From: Clostridiales bacterium
Lineage (GTDB): Bacteria; Bacillota; Clostridia; Peptostreptococcales; Acidaminobacteraceae
Direction: 5' to 3'
Length of the DNA: 64,000 bases
NCBI GenBank assembly: GCA_030446305.1
Contig: JASUSA010000008.1
Span: 1 to 64,000 of the forward strand
Every line of letters starts with the position of its first letter. The first letter of the stretch is position 1. The notes beneath the pieces were generated by a model. The model searched no databases, had not been told where the DNA came from, and worked only from the letters and a program-made list of their open reading frames with translations. Positions 30,839 through 42,380 of the stretch are shown here, one piece after another. Position numbers and translations under genes: made by a program.

Positions 30839-31924
30839 TTATTCTGTCGTCTTAACGCCCATGCCGTCCTGTATTTGGTCGACACCTCTCATAATCCAAA
30901 TTTTATCCGTTGGCAAGTTTATTACCTCAATGCGTTCACCCGACAAGCTGCCAATTTCAATTGGCACCCTAACGGCTGTATGATCTTCAATATAAAAGGC
31001 ATACTGATCTTCGCCAATATGTTTAATTGCCGACAGCGGAAGTGTCATTGCAGATCGCGGTGCTTCCATAAACGCAACTTCACAGGCTATGCCATCTAGG
31101 AGCAAATCATTCACATCCGGAAGTGTCAGTGTTATGTCATACATTTTCGTCACTTCATTTTGAAGAAAACTCAGTGTCTCTACATTGGCATCATATGCTG
31201 TTCCATCAATGGTAACAACGCTTCTGTCAATGGTGTCAAGGCGTTTGAGCTGATCATAAGTCAGTGACGTCTCGATTAGCATACCGCCAGTTTGGATAAT
31301 TTGAACGGCTGTTTGCGACGTTACGCGTTCACCGGCATTTAACTCAAAACCATTGACGATGCCTTCCGCTGGACTCTTTACGGTGTAATCCGTGATGCCC
31401 GCACTTAAAATACGAACCTGTTCTCTGTACGCGGTAGCCGCATTGTCATATTGTCTTGAAAGTGATGAAACCTGGGATTGTGCTGACGAGCGAGTCGAAT
31501 CTGTTGCTGCACCCACTGCATAAAGTGCTTCAATATCAGCCAATTGTTTTTCTGCGTCCTTGAGCTGTATCGACAGGTTGTCCCGCGTCGTTTTCAACCC
31601 GGAAACCGTCGCTTCATAATTGGCTTTCGCCGTTGAATCATCTAGTATATACAGAATATCGCCTGCTTCAACATAGGCACCGTTTTCTACAAAGACTTCT
31701 TTAATCGTGCCGCTGAGCGCCGGTGTTACGGTAAGCACATCGGCTGGTCTTACAGCGCCAATGGTTTTGAACCCATCGGCAAAAACAGTTGTTTCCGCTG
31801 TTCCCGAAGTTACGGCGATCCGATTGTCAACCGGATTTTCATCCGCCAAATTACTTTGACATGCCGTTAGACTTACCAACAGCAACAACAGCCATCCCAT
31901 ACGCCAAATATTATATTTCATCAT
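30839..31924 (-). CDS. RND efflux periplasmic adaptor / membrane fusion lipoprotein
   Basis: Lipobox LTACQSN; TVTPALSGTIKEVFVENGAYVEAGDILYILDDS, SPAEGIVNGFELNAGERV; overlaps the RND gene. Confidence 0.9.
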   Translation of the reverse strand: MMKYNIWRMGWLLLLLVSLTACQSNLADENPVDNRIAVTSGTAETTVFADGFKTIGAVRPADVLTVTPALSGTIKEVFVENGAYVEAGDILYILDDSTAKANYEATVSGLKTTRDNLSIQLKDAEKQLADIEALYAVGAATDSTRSSAQSQVSSLSRQYDNAATAYREQVRILSAGITDYTVKSPAEGIVNGFELNAGERVTSQTAVQIIQTGGMLIETSLTYDQLKRLDTIDRSVVTIDGTAYDANVETLSFLQNEVTKMYDITLTLPDVNDLLLDGIACEVAFMEAPRSAMTLPLSAIKHIGEDQYAFYIEDHTAVRVPIEIGSLSGERIEVINLPTDKIWIMRGVDQIQDGMGVKTTE

Positions 31925-34900
31925 GTGCCTCCTTTTTATCTGAACGCCGCTCAATTAGGTGATACGTCACCGGAATAAAATAGAGCGTCATAATCGTCGT
32001 CACAAGCAGTCCAAAGACGAGTGTAAAACTGAATTGTGCATAATAAACTTCCCTAAAAGCTAACGGCAGTACGCCGCCAATGGTCGTCATCGTCGTTGCC
32101 AATACAGGATTAAATCTTATTTTTCCCGCTTCGACAACAGCCTCATCTAAACTCACCCCTTCTTGTCTCAAGCCATTCATAAAATCAATGAGCACGATTG
32201 CATCATTGACGGCAATTCCAACAAGTGCAACCAATCCCATAAAAGCGTAAAAGCCAAATTCATTCCCCGTGATAACGAGTCCCGTAAAAACACCGATAAA
32301 GGCCATTGGCACCGTTGTGAGAATGGCAAATGGCTGCTTTACTGATTTGAACTGCACCGTTAAAATGACAAAGACCAATAGGATAGCGAGAATCATGGAA
32401 CGCATCAAATCTTTAAAACTGTCCTGTATCTGCGTCACTTCACCGGATAATCTAACAGTGACGCCATCCGGCATTTGAATGCCTGAAAGCTTTTGATCCA
32501 GTTCACTTGTAATTTCAGATGCATTGTAACCATCCATGACATCTGCGGTCACAGTAATAATGCGTTCGCCATCCTGATGGGCAATGGCAGAAACACCTTG
32601 TTCAAAATGATAAGAGGCTACAGCGGCAAGCGGCAGCTTCGTCCCATTCTGCATTGCAATATAAATCGAATCGAGATCAACTGCATTTGTATTGTGAATG
32701 GCCGTGTCAATCACGCGCACATCAATCAACGTCTGTCCTTCTTTAAGCGTTGTTGCAACAGCACCGTTCAACACGCGATTTAGCTGTCTTGCCACTTCAC
32801 CGACAGATAGTCCGTATTGATTCGCCGCGATCGGATCAATCTTCATCACCGTTCGCGGGCCACTGTCTGTTACAGAGACAGCGGCATTGTAAACACCGTC
32901 TATCCCTCTTAAAATTGCCAAATATTGATCGGCCACATTTTTTCCCGCTTCATAATCCTCTGCAGCGAGTTCGATGGCAATAGGCTTGCCGGATGGCGGC
33001 CCTCCCTGTGCAGCCACTGCAATTTCTATCTTGGCATCCGGGATTGCTGCAAAAGCGCGTTCCAAACGCTTTAGCACTGTAAAACCGTTATCTGTCATCA
33101 ACGATTTATCAAAGAACGTCACATTAATCGTCGCCGTATCTGCAGATGCAATACCGCCGATCGCGGTATTAAACACTGCAACAGCAGGTTCTTCAATCAA
33201 AACACGTTCTACAGCAGAAGTCACGCGTCCCGTCTCATCAAGTGTCATTCCCCCTGGTGTATCAACCGTTACCGTCAGACTATTCGGTTCCGCCTGAGGA
33301 AAAAAGTTTACTTTTAATATCCCCAGCGGTATAAAAGCAGCAGTGCCAACGAGTACGACAATGCCCACCAAAATAAGTGAAAGCTGCCGCCAAGGCGATG
33401 TAATCAGCCATGAGAGAATCTTTTCATATCCTTTCACAAGACGTGATGTTTCCATTGACGAACTGCCGAGGCGCCAAAGTTTCAAGGCCATTAAAGTACC
33501 AAAAAAAGCTGATGCCGCAATCGGTAGCCATTTCGTCCCCTCGGAATCATAAAAGGCAATAAAACTCACCAGCATCATAAAAGCCAGCGCCAACAGTTTC
33601 TTTATACGACCGGTTTTAATTGATGCCAGCCGCTTCTTTGAACGTTTCAGCATCACGAGGTAAATCGACGGCGTCACCGTAATTGAAATGAGCAGCGATG
33701 ACAGCAACGCCAAGATAATCGTTCTTGGGATCGTATTGACAAAGGCTCCCATAATGCCGGGCAAAATCGAAAGCGGGAAAAAAGCGGCAACGGTTGTCAT
33801 CGTAGACGCAAGTATGGGCAGCGCTACCTGTGCCACACCATCAAGCGCTGCACGGTAAGGTGTATAGCCCATTCGATACAATCGATCCATATTTTCCATG
33901 ACGATTATGGCGTTGTCCACCAGCAGGCCCAACGCTACAATGAGCCCCAGAATTGCAAAGGTATTGAGCGATATGCCGAGATAGCTTAATAGTCCCAATG
34001 TCAGAAGCAGCGACAGCGGCATTGTAATTGCTACAATCAGTGATTCTTTTAGGCCAATAAACAAGAACAGCACCATGATGACCACCAGCAAACCGGAGCC
34101 TGCGCTCAGTTGGATATTGCTTAAATCACGATTGACATTCACGGCGTTGTCATAGACAATTTCAACCGCGACATCTTTCGGATAAAGTCGGCCGCGCCCT
34201 GCTTCAATCATGGTTTTAACACTAGAACTGGTTCCGATAACATCCGCTCCCTTTTTGCGGTACACGGTCATATACACGCTTTCCTTAGCGACATCGCTTG
34301 TATCAGATTTAAAATAGGTTCGATTAATCAGCCGCTGCGTTTTGATATCATAATGAATATCTGCCAGTTCACCAAGGTAAACAGCCTGACCGCCATTTCC
34401 TGAAACAATGATGTTTTTCATTGCCTCAATATCCGAAATGCGATTATCAATGCTGACAGTCGTCAACTGACCACCGCGTTCAACCGTTCCAACCGGCAAG
34501 TCAACATTGCTCCCAGCAAGTGCATTCATAACCTGATCAAATGTAAAGCCACTGCTTCTGAGTTTATTTTCATCTACGACGACGTGTATTTCCTCTGCCA
34601 CATCGCCCGATAAGGTCACATCATCTACAGCGGGCATCGCATTCACCTCATCAGCAATATCGGATGCAATTTGTGAAAGCGTCGAAATACGATAGGGCCC
34701 ACTGACACTGAATGTCATCAACGGCAGTTCACTGGTTTTAAAAATAACCGCGTCTGGCTTCTCTGCGCCATCAGGTAAATTAACCTCGCCCAGAAGGCTG
34801 TCCGCTTCAAGTTCTTTCTTTTGAATATCCACACTTTCCAAGAAGGTAATGACAACATATGAAAGTCCTTCCGATGATTGTGAAGTTATCTCATCAATCT

Positions 34901-35204
34901 CATCCATTCCCGATAATGCCGTCTCAATCGGATCGGTTACAAGCTGCTCTACATCCAATGCGCCGGCACCCGGATAAGGTGTTTGAATCATCAGCGTCGG
35001 AAAGACAATTTCCGGCAAGGATTCTTTTGGCAACAAATAGGCACTGCTAATCCCTAGCACCAGCAATAAGACGATGAATAGATACGTCATATGTGTGTTA
35101 TGAATAAAATACCCTGCAATTTTACCGAGAAGGTGCATCCTGCCCTGCTCAGCTTTTTGATCTGTTTGTTCTCGATGGTTGTCCTGATCGTTTACATTAC
35201 GCAT
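31911..35204 (-). CDS. RND (AcrB/MdtB-type) efflux transporter, 1097 aa
   Basis: YPGAGALDVEQLVTDPIE, GLIVALGLLVDNAIIVMENMDRL, GLVALVGIAVNDAIVLIDFMN; about 12 TM segments. Confidence 0.95.
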   Translation of the reverse strand: MRNVNDQDNHREQTDQKAEQGRMHLLGKIAGYFIHNTHMTYLFIVLLLVLGISSAYLLPKESLPEIVFPTLMIQTPYPGAGALDVEQLVTDPIETALSGMDEIDEITSQSSEGLSYVVITFLESVDIQKKELEADSLLGEVNLPDGAEKPDAVIFKTSELPLMTFSVSGPYRISTLSQIASDIADEVNAMPAVDDVTLSGDVAEEIHVVVDENKLRSSGFTFDQVMNALAGSNVDLPVGTVERGGQLTTVSIDNRISDIEAMKNIIVSGNGGQAVYLGELADIHYDIKTQRLINRTYFKSDTSDVAKESVYMTVYRKKGADVIGTSSSVKTMIEAGRGRLYPKDVAVEIVYDNAVNVNRDLSNIQLSAGSGLLVVIMVLFLFIGLKESLIVAITMPLSLLLTLGLLSYLGISLNTFAILGLIVALGLLVDNAIIVMENMDRLYRMGYTPYRAALDGVAQVALPILASTMTTVAAFFPLSILPGIMGAFVNTIPRTIILALLSSLLISITVTPSIYLVMLKRSKKRLASIKTGRIKKLLALAFMMLVSFIAFYDSEGTKWLPIAASAFFGTLMALKLWRLGSSSMETSRLVKGYEKILSWLITSPWRQLSLILVGIVVLVGTAAFIPLGILKVNFFPQAEPNSLTVTVDTPGGMTLDETGRVTSAVERVLIEEPAVAVFNTAIGGIASADTATINVTFFDKSLMTDNGFTVLKRLERAFAAIPDAKIEIAVAAQGGPPSGKPIAIELAAEDYEAGKNVADQYLAILRGIDGVYNAAVSVTDSGPRTVMKIDPIAANQYGLSVGEVARQLNRVLNGAVATTLKEGQTLIDVRVIDTAIHNTNAVDLDSIYIAMQNGTKLPLAAVASYHFEQGVSAIAHQDGERIITVTADVMDGYNASEITSELDQKLSGIQMPDGVTVRLSGEVTQIQDSFKDLMRSMILAILLVFVILTVQFKSVKQPFAILTTVPMAFIGVFTGLVITGNEFGFYAFMGLVALVGIAVNDAIVLIDFMNGLRQEGVSLDEAVVEAGKIRFNPVLATTMTTIGGVLPLAFREVYYAQFSFTLVFGLLVTTIMTLYFIPVTYHLIERRSDKKEAHDEI

Positions 35205-36117
35205 AAATACCTCTTTTCAATGTTGACAATTTATAAATCGCTTCTTCCATGCTTTCGGCATACAAGTCCGCTTCTCTTTTCACTTCATCTGCCATCAGGG
35301 ATTCAAGCGCTTGTCCGCTCACAAGGATAAGTGGCTGCTGGCTCTTGGGCATTAATCGAATGGCGTGTATCATCTCATAGACGCCACTCAGATGCTGAGG
35401 CATCGTACACGAGATTCCCAGCACGTGTGGTTCCCATTTTGTAACAGCTGCAATGACTTCAGACGTATCCGTTTGAGTTCCCAGATAATAAGTCGTCCAC
35501 CCAGCCTGCATCAGTTCGTGATGCATCATCCGAAGTCCCATATCATGCAGTTCCTGCGGGGCTGTCACGCCGACAAATGTGGTAAATCCCGCTTCCTTGT
35601 ATGGCTGCCGTTTCGCATACAGCTGCTGAAGTCCTAAATGAATAGCCTCTGTCATAAAATGCTCCTGAAAGACATCGATTTCGCCGCTCGCCCATAGTGC
35701 ACCAATACGATATAGAACCACTTTGAGAATGTGTTCGCAAATTATAATTGTCGTTATGTCGTAATAATGTAGCATGGCAATAAAATGAACAATATCGGAT
35801 AGGTGGCCATTTAAAAGATGTACCATCAATTTTTCGGCCTGCATTTTATAAAATGTGTCAGGACTGACCTTCAATATTTCGGATTGCTCGCGCAGAAGCA
35901 TCTGCATATCTACGGCAATTTCATCCTCTGATACAAGTTCATGCATGGATACATCGAAGATGAGCGCCATTTTTTGGAGCAGCTTTATAGAGGGCATCCG
36001 CGACCCGCTTTCATAATTTGCAATCGCAGGCTGCGTAATGGACAGTGCATGTGCCAACTGCACTTGGCTTAACCCCTTTTGTTTTCGAAAGTACTTTAAT
36101 TGTTCAGAAAATCGCAT
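35197..36117 (-). CDS. XRE-HTH transcriptional regulator fused to a CarH/MerR-type cobalamin-binding module
   Basis: N-term MRFSEQLKYFRKQKGLSQVQLAHALSITQPAIANYESGSRMPS (XRE); ALWASGEIDVFQEHF (W-x9-EH); TAPQELHDMGLRMMHHELMQAGWTTYYLGTQTDTSEVI (ExHxxG); LGISCTM...LILVSGQALES. Confidence 0.88.
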   Translation of the reverse strand: MRFSEQLKYFRKQKGLSQVQLAHALSITQPAIANYESGSRMPSIKLLQKMALIFDVSMHELVSEDEIAVDMQMLLREQSEILKVSPDTFYKMQAEKLMVHLLNGHLSDIVHFIAMLHYYDITTIIICEHILKVVLYRIGALWASGEIDVFQEHFMTEAIHLGLQQLYAKRQPYKEAGFTTFVGVTAPQELHDMGLRMMHHELMQAGWTTYYLGTQTDTSEVIAAVTKWEPHVLGISCTMPQHLSGVYEMIHAIRLMPKSQQPLILVSGQALESLMADEVKREADLYAESMEEAIYKLSTLKRGIYA

Positions 36118-36147
36118 CCCATTCTCCAATCGTTCTGCTATTTTTCA

Positions 36148-36412: not shown

Positions 36413-37246
36413 TTATGATAGTGCTTCCAATTTTTCAGCCGTATTTTCGAACCAATTGCCCTTAAAGAGTTCAATCATACCCCTGTCGCAAATTTGTGCA
36501 AAAGCGGAATCAATTGGCAATTTCTCCAAAACGGGAAGCGCATACTGACTTGCCATTTGTTCCAACTTCGATTCGCCAAATATTTGATGTTTCGCACCAC
36601 AGCTGCCGCATTCAAAATAAGACATGTTTTCTACAATGCCCAAAATTGGAATCGACATGTGATTGGCCATGTTAACCGCCTTCTCTACAATCATGCCAAC
36701 GAGTGCCTGCGGCGATGTAACAACGATGATCCCATCTACTTTAATTGACTGGAAAACCGTCAGCGGCACATCACCCGTGCCCGGCGGCATGTCAATAAAC
36801 ATGTAATCGACATCTTCCCAAATAACTTCTGACCAAAATTGTTTAACCATATTTGCAATGATCGGGCCGCGCCATACAACCGGATCACTTTCATTTTCAA
36901 GCAGTAAATTAATGCTCATAATATCAATACCCGTTTTCGTCGAAATCGGATAAATGCCTTCAGGTGTGCCAAGCGCCTTTTCTTTTATACCAAAAGCTTT
37001 TGGAATAGATGGCCCTGTAATATCGGCATCTAGAATAGCCGCTTTATGACCTCTACGTTGCATGGTTACAGCAAGCATTGACGTCACAAGGCTTTTGCCG
37101 ACGCCGCCCTTGCCGCTAACGACACCGATAACTTTTTTGACGCGACTTGCCTGATGCAGCGGCGCTGAAAAATCATGCGGCTTGCTTTCCCTCGAATCAC
37201 AATTTTCTGTACACGAATCACATTGATGTGAACAATTCTCACTCAT
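36413..37246 (-). CDS. Mrp/NBP35-family Fe-S cluster carrier P-loop ATPase
   Basis: KKVIGVVSGKGGVGKSLVTSMLAVTMQRRGHKAAILDADITGPSIPKAFG; DYMFIDMPPGTGDVPLT; ENMSYFECGSCGAKH; N-terminal CSHQCDSCTENC. Confidence 0.95.
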   Translation of the reverse strand: MSENCSHQCDSCTENCDSRESKPHDFSAPLHQASRVKKVIGVVSGKGGVGKSLVTSMLAVTMQRRGHKAAILDADITGPSIPKAFGIKEKALGTPEGIYPISTKTGIDIMSINLLLENESDPVVWRGPIIANMVKQFWSEVIWEDVDYMFIDMPPGTGDVPLTVFQSIKVDGIIVVTSPQALVGMIVEKAVNMANHMSIPILGIVENMSYFECGSCGAKHQIFGESKLEQMASQYALPVLEKLPIDSAFAQICDRGMIELFKGNWFENTAEKLEALS

Positions 37247-37270
37247 TAATATCACCCACTTTTAAATATT

Positions 37271-37379: not shown

Positions 37380-38303
37380 CTAAATGACATCCTTTAAGCA
37401 AGTCATGCCATCCTGAGACCACCGCCTGTACTTGCAATTCCAGCAAACGCCTGAAACAGCGTCAATACATTCTTCGTCCATATCTTTTACAAATGTTTGA
37501 CACGCTTTTTTTGGCGCCTGCAGCTTATACCCTTTCAAGAGATTATAGTCAAATCGCTCAATAAAACCGGCACCCATTTGCGTCTGCCTGATCACGCGCT
37601 TGTCCAGTGCAACATAGCCTTGCGGTGTTTCATCGACGAGAAGGGTAAAACGATGATCTTTTAAAATCACTTTTGTCGGCTGATAAATGAGAATTTCAGC
37701 CGTTTCAGGCACTGATGCCCCCTTCGTCGTCTCAATTAATTCAATCTCATTGGCAGTTTGCAGTGCTTTTGCTGTGAAGCGTTGGTTTTCAACATGCTTC
37801 AAAAGGCCCTTTGCCTCGCCGTGATTGCCGGAAAGTCTTAGCCCAACACCTGCCATTGCACCAATGATTCCATCCCCTGTACCGCCATGTTCGGAGAGGT
37901 GTATGCCCAGATAGTACGCGAGGTCATATGCCGCCTGTTTTGTCAGCACTTCTGTCGTTGCGCGCTGTCCAAAATGGATGAGCATATTTTTTTCATTAAT
38001 CGTCGGATTCCCGATCATGCAAAATCCAGGATCTGAACCGGCGGCTCTGAATTTTCGAATGATGTCTATGCTGATATCTTGTATCAGGCGCATGGAACAT
38101 CTTGGCGCTTCACCTTCGAGACACATGGAACTATTGTGCGAAGTATAGGGAATATCTTCATGAATTAGCAATTGGTGCCTGGTAATATGATGGCATTTTC
38201 CAATGCCCTGTGCAGCAATTTCCCGTTTAATACGTTCAACCAATTCACCTGTTCCAATCGAATCGACATTGTCCGTATCGTCCAGGCAGAGAAAGAACTT
38301 CAT
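37380..38303 (-). CDS. TiaS-like (tRNA-Ile2 agmatinylcytidine synthetase-related) protein, last gene of ABC transporter operon
   Basis: MKFFLCLDDTDNVDSIGTGELVERIKREI resembles the TiaS N-terminal hDDTDS motif; HGGTGDGIIGAMAGVGLRLSGNHGEAKG; C-terminal Cys motif CIDAVSGVCWNCKYRRWSQDGMTC. Confidence 0.6.
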   Translation of the reverse strand: MKFFLCLDDTDNVDSIGTGELVERIKREIAAQGIGKCHHITRHQLLIHEDIPYTSHNSSMCLEGEAPRCSMRLIQDISIDIIRKFRAAGSDPGFCMIGNPTINEKNMLIHFGQRATTEVLTKQAAYDLAYYLGIHLSEHGGTGDGIIGAMAGVGLRLSGNHGEAKGLLKHVENQRFTAKALQTANEIELIETTKGASVPETAEILIYQPTKVILKDHRFTLLVDETPQGYVALDKRVIRQTQMGAGFIERFDYNLLKGYKLQAPKKACQTFVKDMDEECIDAVSGVCWNCKYRRWSQDGMTCLKDVI

Positions 38304-39403
38304 AACTGTCCCTCCTGATAATCCTTAGGCAACCGCATCGTTTCGCCACGCATAATGGCTTGATACATGTCGTCTGTTAAATTGAATTCAAACAGCGTTT
38401 CATAAAATTGCCGAACCTCATCCTGCAAATCAACATCTGCAAAGCGATCCGGATATAAATCATTTGCAACCCATAAAATCGCAAGCGGCGTTTCAATAGA
38501 TGTTTTATGCCCCCATCGGCTTATGCCAATCGGCATTTGCTTGACTTCGCGATTTTTCACGGCATCGATAAACTGCCATTGCGGATTCGTCAGGATGTAC
38601 TCGGAGACGCCGCTTTCATTACAGTAAATAACCGCCGGATTCCAAAGAATGATTTGCTCTAAATTCGTGTAATATTTATCACCGTCTTTTTCAAGATCCG
38701 CACCAAGGGAAACATTTACGCCGCCTGCAACTTTCATCCAATCTGCCGGCAGCGTGTCACTGGCAACTGTACAGTTAGCCTCATTGATCGAATGGTAGAC
38801 ACGCACTTTCTCGTCCTCTGTCAGCGTCTCTAAATGCGTCTCAACCAGTGTGACAATACGATCGTAAAAAGTTGTATATGCCGCTGCTTCATCTTCGGCA
38901 TCCAACAATTTTCCCAACATGGTCACGACTTCTTTTTCTTCGGCCATATTTTGAAAATCTACAACAAAATAAGGAATACCGAATTTATCAAGTTGTTCGG
39001 TTTGCTTGTCATCATAGTAAATGCTCATTGATATTAAAGCAACATCTATAGACTGATCGAGCAGCGTTTCCATATTAATCTGACCACTGCTTACCGCCAT
39101 TACGGCATCGCCTATCGTCGGCACCAGTTCATTCAGTAAAACATCACGCTTTAAACCGTTGTTTACGGCGACAATTCGATCACCGCGGTCGAGCATGCTC
39201 ACCATGTGACCAGACACGGCATATAATGCAGCAATGTGCTCAGGATTTTTTGGCAAGGTAAGTGTTCTGCCTGCACTATCTGTTACCGTTACAACGGCAG
39301 GGTTGTCTGCTGCGTTATCTGTATGCTGTGCCTCAGGTTTTGCGGCACATCCCGATACTGCCAAAAGGAGAATCAGTCCCAATATTGCAAGTTTTCTTTT
39401 CAT
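38300..39403 (-). CDS. ABC transporter substrate-binding lipoprotein (PeriBP_2, BtuF/FepB type)
   Basis: Lipobox AVSGCAAK; VTVTDSAGRTLTLPKNPEHIAALYAVSGHMVSMLDRGDRIVAV. Confidence 0.88.
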   Translation of the reverse strand: MKRKLAILGLILLLAVSGCAAKPEAQHTDNAADNPAVVTVTDSAGRTLTLPKNPEHIAALYAVSGHMVSMLDRGDRIVAVNNGLKRDVLLNELVPTIGDAVMAVSSGQINMETLLDQSIDVALISMSIYYDDKQTEQLDKFGIPYFVVDFQNMAEEKEVVTMLGKLLDAEDEAAAYTTFYDRIVTLVETHLETLTEDEKVRVYHSINEANCTVASDTLPADWMKVAGGVNVSLGADLEKDGDKYYTNLEQIILWNPAVIYCNESGVSEYILTNPQWQFIDAVKNREVKQMPIGISRWGHKTSIETPLAILWVANDLYPDRFADVDLQDEVRQFYETLFEFNLTDDMYQAIMRGETMRLPKDYQEGQL

Positions 39404-40219
39404 TTAGATGCCTCTTTCCGTGCGAATGGGCACAATATGTGATTGCGGTTTTTCAGCCTCTTCTGCTGTAAAATGTAATACCTGCGTTCCCAATCGATAA
39501 ACACGTCTGATGTTGTCAACGGTCAGAACGGTTTCCGGCGCCCCTTCTGAAACGACAGTCCCCGCTTCGAGCAGTACCGCCCGCGTTTTCACGCCTCTTT
39601 GTGCAAAGTAAAATGCATGATTCGGATCATGCGTTGACATAACGATGCCATGCGATGATGTCAGCATCATCTCGCTGATATGCTCAAGCACCATCATTTC
39701 ATTTTTTAAATCCAGTGATGCAGTCGGCTCATCCAGCAATTGAAAAACAGCGCCTTGGACAAGACCTCTGGCAATGCGTACCAATTGCCTTTCACCGCCA
39801 CTGAGTGTATGATACATTTGGTCTGCAAGATGATGGATGTCAAGGGCCTTTAAAACCGCCACTGCCAGTGCACGGTCTTTGTCCCCAGGTACGTCAAAAC
39901 GTCCCAAATAAGGTGTTCGTCCCATTAATACAACTTCTCGCGCTGCAAACGGAAAATTAACTTCATCCTTTTGCGGCATATAGGCAATGTGCCTTGCGCG
40001 TTCGGCATCGCGCATCTCACTTACGGGCATCCCTTCAATTTCTATGGAGCCGTCAAAACTGCCTTCAAAACCGCTAATACAGTTGAGCATTGTCGTCTTG
40101 CCGCTGCCGTTTGGCCCTAACAGGCAGACGAGTTCACCCTGTTCAACTGCTGTTGATATATCGTCCAATATGATTTGGTGTCCATACTGAAAGCTCAAAT
40201 GCTTGATGCTCAACGTCAT
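39404..40219 (-). CDS. FecE/BtuD-type ABC transporter ATP-binding protein
   Basis: MTLSIKHLSFQYGHQIILDDI; LLGPNGSGKTTMLN; LSGGERQLVRIARGLVQ; QLLDEPTASLD. Confidence 0.93.
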   Translation of the reverse strand: MTLSIKHLSFQYGHQIILDDISTAVEQGELVCLLGPNGSGKTTMLNCISGFEGSFDGSIEIEGMPVSEMRDAERARHIAYMPQKDEVNFPFAAREVVLMGRTPYLGRFDVPGDKDRALAVAVLKALDIHHLADQMYHTLSGGERQLVRIARGLVQGAVFQLLDEPTASLDLKNEMMVLEHISEMMLTSSHGIVMSTHDPNHAFYFAQRGVKTRAVLLEAGTVVSEGAPETVLTVDNIRRVYRLGTQVLHFTAEEAEKPQSHIVPIRTERGI

Positions 40220-40230
40220 GCGCTTCCCCC

Positions 40231-41295
40231 TTACCAATTTCGCCCCTTTGTCCTTCTCAAGAGGAATACGTAGAACGGCGCGCCAACAAGCGCTGTAATA
40301 ATACCGATAGGCATCTCTGCAGATGAAATACTTCTGGCAAAGATATCAACGATGACCAGAAAGCCGCCGCCAAGCGCAAAAGAAAGCGGCAACAGCGTTC
40401 GATAATCTGAACCAATAAGCATTCGAATCATATGCGGCATAACGAGTCCAATCCATCCGATCGTACCCGAAACAGCTACTGCGGCAGCCGTCATAAGCGC
40501 ACTGCACGCAATCAGAATGCCCTTTGTACGCCGAATATTTACGCCCAGTGAAAAAGCTTCTAAATCTCCCAGCGACAGTACATTCATCCGCCAGCGCATC
40601 AGGTAAATAACAAAAAAACTGATGCTAATTGGAAAAATAGCGATCATCAACTCCCGGTATCCTGTATTCGCCAAACTTCCCATCAGCCAAAAAACAATAC
40701 CCGGTAGCTCATCATAAGGATCGGCTATGTATTTACCGAAAGAAACAAGCGCTGAAAACACCGATGATACAATGACACCACCCAATACGAGCATAATGGT
40801 AGGCGTTGACCGATAAGCCGATGCAATTCGATAGCTCATCCATACAGCGAGCAAACCAAATGAAAACGCCAGCAAAATAACAGCGCCATAACGGCCATTG
40901 AAAAAGATAAATCCCAACACCGCACCAAAACTGGCACCATTGCTCACGCCAAGCATGCCTGCATCAACAAGTGGATTTCGAAAGATTCCCTGCAGCACCG
41001 CACCGCTTACAGCCAGTGCGCCACCAACGAAAAAGCCAAGAATAGCGCGCGGCAAACGTATCTGAAAAATTACACCTGCCACCACATCCTGTACATCATA
41101 ATGCCAGGTGGTTATCCCCAGCCACAATCGCTGCAGCACTTCTATAAACGATATCGGATAACGTCCGAGGAACAGTGCCGCGAGCATTGCTGCAAAAGGC
41201 AGCAATGCTATGCAAACGCTGATCATTCGCAATCGTGTTTTACGATGATTTGTCAGACTATTTCGATTTGACAACCCAAACGACCCCCACAACAA
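40231..41295 (-). CDS. FecCD/BtuC-family ABC permease
   Basis: LPRAILGFFVGGALAVSGAVLQGIFRNPLVDAGMLGVSNGASFGAV; GTIGWIGLVMPHMIRMLIGSDYRTLLPLS. Confidence 0.93.
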   Translation of the reverse strand: MLWGSFGLSNRNSLTNHRKTRLRMISVCIALLPFAAMLAALFLGRYPISFIEVLQRLWLGITTWHYDVQDVVAGVIFQIRLPRAILGFFVGGALAVSGAVLQGIFRNPLVDAGMLGVSNGASFGAVLGFIFFNGRYGAVILLAFSFGLLAVWMSYRIASAYRSTPTIMLVLGGVIVSSVFSALVSFGKYIADPYDELPGIVFWLMGSLANTGYRELMIAIFPISISFFVIYLMRWRMNVLSLGDLEAFSLGVNIRRTKGILIACSALMTAAAVAVSGTIGWIGLVMPHMIRMLIGSDYRTLLPLSFALGGGFLVIVDIFARSISSAEMPIGIITALVGAPFYVFLLRRTKGRNW

Positions 41296-42025
41296 CGATT
41301 AAACCGACGATAACAACGAGAATCGTATTTCTCGAAATCCCTCCGCTTTGATCTACAGCGGTATCATTTGCCGGTTCAACTGCCGCACTTTCATCAGGTG
41401 CATTCTGGTCTGTTACTTCATCGGCTGCTGCAGTATCGCTGGAATCCGCTGCAGGTGCATCCATGCTTCCAGACGTACTTTCAGGCGTACTTTCAGGTGT
41501 ACTTTCAGGTGTACTTTCAGCGGTCTCAGCTGGTGCCGCTTCTGCCGGTGCAGCTTCCGCCGCAGTTTCTTCAGAGACAATCGTAAAGGTGACTTGTTGA
41601 TCTTCACCTAAAGCATTTCCATTTTTAGCGGCTAGCTCTTTTGAGATATTAAGTGTATACGTCTCTCCCGGCGTCCATGCGCCAAACGGCCTTATTTCAA
41701 TGGTATTGCGTATATCTCGGTTCACTTGGTCGTCACCGAAGAACGTGAGGAAATTAGCGGGCGCCCCCGTCGAATCAACCATTGAGAAACACGCTGCATT
41801 CGCATCTTTTACACTTAAGTTAACAACGTTATTTGAGAAATTAAGATAGATAATTTCATTAACGCCAACGGCATCAAGTCCGTTTTCAACATCAACGGAT
41901 TCCAGCGTCAGCGGATTATCACCGCCACCCCCACCGTTGCCGCCCTCAGCAAAAGATGCAATGCCCATCATCAATAAACACACTAAGACAAGACTTACAA
42001 TTTTTAGCGATCTAAACTGTTTCAT
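41258..42025 (-). CDS. Secreted, membrane-anchored Ig-like (Big_5/SbsA-type) surface protein with STPE repeat linker
   Basis: Signal peptide; GLDAVGVNEIIYLNFSNNVVNLSV...GETYTLNISKELAAKNGNALGEDQQVTFTI; ESTPESTPESTPEST repeat; C-terminal TM plus WVVKSK. Confidence 0.75.
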   Translation of the reverse strand: MKQFRSLKIVSLVLVCLLMMGIASFAEGGNGGGGGDNPLTLESVDVENGLDAVGVNEIIYLNFSNNVVNLSVKDANAACFSMVDSTGAPANFLTFFGDDQVNRDIRNTIEIRPFGAWTPGETYTLNISKELAAKNGNALGEDQQVTFTIVSEETAAEAAPAEAAPAETAESTPESTPESTPESTSGSMDAPAADSSDTAAADEVTDQNAPDESAAVEPANDTAVDQSGGISRNTILVVIVGLIVVVGVVWVVKSK

Positions 42026-42145: not shown

Positions 42146-42294
42146 AGCATAAAAAAAGCACCGTCAGGCGGGGCTTGTGATTCAGGCAAAGCGGCTAAGT
42201 ATTGATCACACGTTCCGTTTTGTCCCGTATTGATTTTCGCCTATCCTCGAGTTTTATGCAGCGCTGGATGCGCATTCATCACAATAAGATTATA
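42146..42294 (-). ncRNA. Unassigned structured leader with terminator (candidate riboswitch/attenuator) upstream of the ABC operon
   Basis: About 140-nt leader after a consensus promoter; contains TGTGAT...ATCACA pairing and ends AAGCcCCGcctgaCGGtGCTTTTTTT (minus strand). Confidence 0.5.
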
Positions 42295-42317
42295 GGCCTT
42301 TGTCCACTAACTGTCAA
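42289..42317 (-). promoter_or_regulatory. Consensus promoter of the surface-protein/ABC/TiaS-like operon
   Basis: TTGACA (42317-42312), 17 bp, TATAAT (42294-42289). Confidence 0.85.
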
Positions 42318-42380
42318 ACGATAACCGACACCATTCAATTATAAATCTATTTCATGCACTGCCCTCTGTAGGACTTAAAC

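Follow-up and report, generated by a model that had tools for sequence, protein, structure and literature searches.

MolABC (HI1470–1472) is a class II importer of molybdate and tungstate, and MolA is the molybdate/tungstate binder of this type II importer (PMC4031551). TupABC and ModABC are class I tungstate/molybdate importers. Archaeal TiaS (NCBIfam NF040849; structures 3amt, 3au7 and 4rvz) is the tRNA-Ile2 2-agmatinylcytidine synthetase, and its N-terminal TCKD domain belongs to the same superfamily as methanogenesis marker 11 (MMP11, TIGR03280) and the archaeal protein 3u02. To our knowledge, MMP11 and 3u02 are both uncharacterised, no TCKD partner is known for the Tup and Mod importers, and none of the known molybdenum/tungsten (Mo/W) importers (Mod, Tup, Wtp and Mol) has a dedicated cytoplasmic enzyme. 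Here, we describe an operon in a 64,000-nucleotide stretch of DNA from a Clostridiales bacterium (GCA_030446305.1, contig JASUSA010000008.1, positions 1 to 64,000; the window) that encodes an importer together with a TiaS-like protein. We consider it likely that this is a MolABC-like (class II, FecCD/BtuCD-fold) importer of Mo and/or W with a near-obligate partner of the TCKD family.

A TiaS-like protein encoded with a MolABC-like importer

The operon comprises five minus-strand open reading frames (ORFs) arranged head to tail from 42025 to 37380. All five were present at the positions and on the strand given in a first-pass annotation of the sequence, and Pfam bore out the domains of the first four:

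41258–42025, minus strand: surface protein with signal peptide, Big_5 Ig-like domain and C-terminal transmembrane anchor (PF13205, 1.5e-9)
40231–41295, minus strand: FecCD/BtuC-family permease (PF01032, 2e-82)
39404–40237, minus strand: ATP-binding cassette (ABC) importer ATPase (PF00005, 1.5e-28)
38300–39403, minus strand: substrate-binding lipoprotein, MolA-like Peripla_BP_2 (PF01497, 1.9e-18)
37380–38303, minus strand: TiaS-like protein of 307 aa, with a TCKD-type domain (residues 1–158), a family-specific part and a Cys4 module
38250–38282, minus strand: motif from DDTD (residues 8–11) to Thr18, found also in the TiaS kinase domain (34 family members aligned to AfTiaS and 3u02)
37398–37502, minus strand: Cys4 module (C268, C287, C290 and C302), a separate gene of ~67 aa in many relatives

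The TiaS-like and lipoprotein genes share 4 nt, and the true start of the permease probably lies inside the first codons of its ORF, which overlaps the Big_5 gene. Fusibacter paucivorans, the closest named relative, has the same gene order and a TiaS-like protein that is 90% identical; the Big_5 surface protein has a homologue in the same position in most relatives. As in MolABC-type importers, a FecCD permease, a BtuD-like ABC ATPase and a Peripla_BP_2 substrate-binding protein (SBP) close to MolA are encoded in one operon. The window system differs from MolABC in its Gram-positive lipoprotein SBP, in its extra Big_5/SLH surface protein, in the additional TiaS-like and Cys4 proteins and in the control of related operons by riboswitches for the molybdenum or tungsten cofactor (Moco or Tuco).

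By sequence comparison, the TiaS-like protein and the N-terminal TCKD domain of TiaS are truly homologous. It matched NF040849 at 1.4e-6 (27 bits, cut-off 600) and MMP11 at 2e-4 (20.4 bits, far from the cut-off of 255.8), both over residues 1–158 only; a relative (L019) scored 38 bits to MMP11 and 39 bits to TiaS. Pfam gave no family at E up to 10, and phmmer with the single sequence against the PDB returned only noise. A profile built from nine TiaS-like relatives matched the AfTiaS structures 3amt, 3au7 and 4rvz at 3e-6 and 3u02 at 6e-8 (35.6 bits) over positions 1–157. AlphaFold2, run with the window and F. paucivorans sequences only, gave a pLDDT of 31.

Across the 34 family members, DDTD, Thr18, R42, N57, G93, G145 and G148 were almost invariant and common to TiaS, with which the PG and GxGxIGA motifs are likewise shared; Thr18 is said, in 2011 work by Terasaka and Osawa, to be the autophosphorylation site of TiaS. 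In contrast to archaeal TiaS, the family has the motifs RHQL, TSHNS, EHGGTG and GNDG and a Cys4 module, and model and profile searches detected none of the other TiaS domains. The likeness to archaeal TiaS proposed in the first-pass annotation holds for the N-terminal domain. Compared with F. paucivorans, third codon positions of the gene are 62% identical and the first two 92–95%, indicating that it is under purifying selection. No relatives were found in viral contigs.

Paralogues in which DDTD is replaced (DDSxQ/L) and Thr18 is Ala come from one family, f37 (L063 9735–10475, L066 8645–9550, L069 9609–10349 and L085 7818–8567), and most stand in tandem beside an intact copy. Two others of this kind, at G208:C14 and G337:C26, are solo and immediately follow a Moco riboswitch.

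The C-terminal Cys motif remarked on earlier proved real, since its four Cys residues, in a module spanning residues ~265–304, are invariant in 13 sequences. Cys4 is a separate gene of ~65–90 aa directly downstream of the TiaS-like gene in nine loci (L015, L016, L020, L056, L057, L058, L060, L062 and L065) and just upstream in L070; it is fused in Fusibacter, L022 and L073. Because it is fused in some lineages and adjacent in others, we argue that it functions jointly with the TiaS-like protein. It is a putative Fe–S or Zn module.

Linkage to the importer and the Mo/W context

Among anaerobic bacteria, this little-known type of importer regularly comes with a TiaS-like gene, and the linkage between the two is far beyond chance. 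The TiaS-like gene occurs patchily: within the order, 10 of 148 genomes carry it, and across the phylum 28 of 399. Importer genes adjoin it in all 10 carriers within the order and in most evaluable loci at the phylum level. Exceptions are solo copies away from the importer (L061, L063, L068, L070 and L072), copies near TupABC (L061, L068 and L072), one copy beside an energy-coupling factor (ECF) transporter (L075) and fragments at contig ends. The SBP clade, set apart sharply by score (members at least 460 bits, next at most 243), was found in 20 of the 28 genomes with a TiaS-like gene and in none of the 371 others. The association extends to genomes that carry both genes unlinked (G208 and G337). 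Pairwise distances of the SBP and the TiaS-like protein were correlated (r 0.63, Mantel p 0.0005).

TiaS-like genes were also observed further afield. Haloarchaeal Natribaculum plasmids contain unannotated TiaS-like ORFs (L076 7950–8708 and L078 7950–8714) divergent from FecCD-type importer genes, and the actinobacterial Pimelobacter simplex plasmid pC-N39 (3.8 kb) carries one annotated as hypothetical (L077 1441–2178). In L020 (9392–10269), the gene is split by a frameshift, either a sequencing error or a pseudogene. GlpA/GlpB-like FAD oxidoreductases, comprising DAO with BFD [2Fe-2S] and Pyr_redox with DUF1667, adjoin the operon in three genera (L016 9927–11441, L019 6741–9578 and L022 13443–16369).

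Control elements and neighbouring genes in the relatives point to Mo or W. RF01055 RNAs correspond to Moco or Tuco genes (PMC2408646). In relatives of many genera, such a riboswitch stands at the start of the operon, or immediately before a TiaS-like gene on its own, at about 16 loci (L016, L017 in tandem, L020, L021, L056, L057, L059, L064, L069, L070, L072, L073, L075 and L081, and, placed by coordinates, G208:C14 and G337:C26). The chance expectation on the right strand within 6 kb was ~0.3 of roughly 45 loci, based on 265 such riboswitches in 37 genomes; the L057 riboswitch lies at 7.3 kb, and with a distance of 8 kb the expectation would be only ~0.4.

The genes moeA-moeA-moaA-moaC-mogA-tupABC-(SLH protein)-Big5-permease-ATPase-SBP-TiaS-like follow one another on one strand in L079, with moeA and moaA assigned by position and by similarity to a cluster in the window's own genome (L083, tupABC-mogA-moeA-moeA-moaA-moaC). 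A ModE-like regulator and ModA (215 bits, cut-off 62.5) flank the operon in L015; TupA lies near the TiaS-like gene in L057, L061 and L072, and MOT1-family transporters in L020, L057 and L081. Further neighbours include MogA (L019), a formate-dehydrogenase-like enzyme (L069) and MobB. A TupB/ModB-like permease was located at most 10 kb from the TiaS-like locus in seven genomes, compared with 0.59 expected. TupABC and ModABC, importers of a class unrelated to the window system, share its inferred cargo and are sometimes adjacent to it (L015, L057, L061, L072 and L079).

Against known structures, the SBP profile matched 4ovk best (2.4e-49) and MolA HI_1472 second (3psa, 3.8e-41). MoaC was present in 25 of 25 well-assembled carriers and 223 of 332 other genomes, and an aldehyde ferredoxin oxidoreductase (AOR)-type gene in 28 of 28 carriers and 199 of 371 others, both counts being uncorrected for phylogeny. 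The AOR association was examined for a bias towards tungsten; as it is not clearly stronger than that with Moco synthesis itself, it does not tell W from Mo. The one Moco riboswitch of the window's own genome lies upstream of an AOR-like gene.

At the family level, we regard a system dedicated to Mo/W as highly probable. For this window, we hold the same view with slightly less confidence, and Mo/W would be the cargo in Fusibacter.

Proposed mechanism and competing readings

Our proposal builds on what was observed: homology, the organisation of the operon, an active-site motif that is conserved, linkage and, in relatives, control by Mo/W riboswitches. The cargo would most simply be molybdate or tungstate, or a complex of either. 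The lipoprotein would capture the Mo/W species, and the permease and ATPase would import it; the cytoplasmic TiaS-like protein with Cys4 may then use ATP at DDTD/Thr18 to process, trap or activate Mo/W for Moco/Tuco synthesis. Judging from its sequence, the TiaS-like protein probably, on a modest balance, performs active ATP chemistry. More tentatively, and with less confidence than in its ATP chemistry, we suggest that this TiaS-superfamily kinase domain may serve as a dedicated Mo/W-acquisition enzyme, by phosphorylating or trapping the oxyanion or by re-phosphorylating a salvaged Moco/Tuco pterin. The Mo storage protein (MoSto), of nucleotide-kinase fold, would resemble the TiaS-like protein only in handling Mo with the use of ATP; the folds are unrelated, and the comparison is one of analogy. 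For such handling of Mo, the ATP-dependent MoSto (mentioned in PMC11980592) sets a precedent.

Several points weigh against this proposal. The window's operon lacks a Moco riboswitch, no Mo/W gene was recognised in its surroundings, and the Mo/W assignment for the window was carried over from relatives; moreover, the co-occurrence statistics ignore phylogeny. The homology from which the ATP chemistry is argued covers only 158 residues, and in some lineages TiaS-like paralogues persist despite the loss of DDTD and Thr18, indicating that the fold can serve without that site.

The main rival to the proposal is cofactor salvage, in which a pterin cofactor (Moco/Tuco or a fragment) would be imported instead of the oxyanion, and the TiaS-like protein would be a salvage kinase acting on the pterin, nucleotide or phosphate end. 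Large chelates are the usual cargo of FecCD importers, which counts for salvage; the operon of L064 and L073 begins with a gene for an exported protein that has a molybdopterin-binding domain (PF00174), and PF00174 proteins occur in L015 and L017 as well, together with a phosphodiesterase, ECF transporters and MobB. However, MolA, the best characterised close SBP, binds an oxyanion, the carriers make their own Moco and salvage-like genes occur in few loci only. We judge salvage unlikely. The clusters beside the operon in L015 (1–10300), L017 (2300–14300) and L020 (1–2600) contain PF00174 lipoproteins, CbiQ-type ECF transporters, a MobB-FeS protein and an APH/RIO-like kinase, with the phosphodiesterase in L015, and possibly constitute a Moco/Tuco salvage pathway.

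A little less probable still is a sensor, i.e., a nucleotide- or oxyanion-binding subunit that would gate the importer or report Mo/W status without metabolic kinase activity. The persistence in one family of paralogues lacking DDTD and Thr18, which keep their own Moco riboswitch, agrees with such a role, as does the short ATPase (277 aa), in which Pfam found no extra regulatory domain. However, the main TiaS-like class keeps the whole motif shared with TiaS nearly invariant, and the solo copies listed above stand away from the importer.

That the protein is a bacterial TiaS, modifying tRNA or other RNA and merely neighbouring the importer, is very improbable. Homology to the TiaS kinase domain and a TrmO-family gene near the TiaS-like gene in L062 favour this reading; however, homology to TiaS is undetectable past residue ~158, the distribution is patchy, the TiaS-like protein is tightly coupled to one SBP clade and the window's genome encodes tilS (188 bits, cut-off 93.6), which the first-pass annotation had proposed to look for. 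Because tilS is present and the other TiaS domains were undetected, the repurposed activity suggested in that annotation is more likely than tRNA-Ile2 agmatinylation. The TrmO-family gene (L062 3726–4529, 114 bits, over the cut-off) lies a short way downstream of the TiaS-like gene and its Cys4 neighbour.

An importer of corrinoid, heme or siderophore, with the TiaS-like protein processing such cargo, is scarcely credible: FecCD/BtuC membership and the nearest named NCBIfam models (BtuC and a heme/corrinoid ATPase) speak for it, but all these models fell below their cut-offs (e.g., BtuC at 261.6 compared with 461 bits) and no locus scanned had a cobalamin riboswitch, Mo/W riboswitches and genes being found instead. 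The earlier label of a metal/corrinoid importer, in which the metal was left unnamed, is not supported as regards corrinoid and is sharpened to Mo/W.

Leader, neighbouring genes and implications

Upstream of the operon, two further features were identified:

42289–42317, minus strand: promoter TTGACA-17-TATAAT, 12 of 12 consensus positions (a consensus match, not a mapped start site)
42146–42282, minus strand: conserved 5' leader with a terminator-like hairpin and T7 at its end, a candidate regulatory RNA

The promoter is kept in F. paucivorans, and the promoter and leader together (42146–42320, 175 nt) are 97.2% identical to that species, compared with 52% in the adjoining intergenic DNA and 76–84% in the operon genes. 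The terminator-like hairpin sits ~120 nt before the first gene. Rfam, including RF01055, gave no match in the leader, and a diverged Moco riboswitch was rejected, as a model built from 18 riboswitches of related loci also gave no match. No convincing homologues of the leader were found outside Fusibacter. Its folding energy was not better than that of shuffled sequences (z −0.66), and the two Fusibacter sequences offer no covariation. From its sequence, the leader looks like an attenuator-type regulatory RNA or an unclassified riboswitch, and is a candidate of no known class.

An Mrp/NBP35 Fe–S carrier gene (36413–37255) comes next after the TiaS-like gene. It has its own promoter-like site (37319–37292, 11 of 12 consensus positions) and was therefore left out of the operon. 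Further along, a Cro/CI-type helix-turn-helix regulator fused to a B12-binding domain (35197–36129, minus strand) lies directly upstream of an RND-type efflux gene (31911–35204, minus strand); together, they are possibly a light- or cobalamin-responsive efflux operon.

Our literature search found no paper on a bacterial TiaS-like protein and no description of a MolABC-like importer with a near-obligate partner of the TCKD superfamily. The uptake, separation and activation of W and Mo in cells are only partly understood. A conserved protein with a kinase-type motif, riboswitch-controlled in relatives and linked to a single SBP clade, gives a missing step in Mo/W acquisition that can be tested. 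If true, phosphorylation or trapping of the oxyanion would be a step driven by ATP for which no Mo/W pathway is known to have a counterpart, and re-phosphorylation of a salvaged pterin would make this an undescribed kind of cofactor-import pathway. With this family, the TiaS kinase domain seems to be a module used more widely than in tRNA modification, and a handle is gained on the MMP11 and 3u02 proteins.

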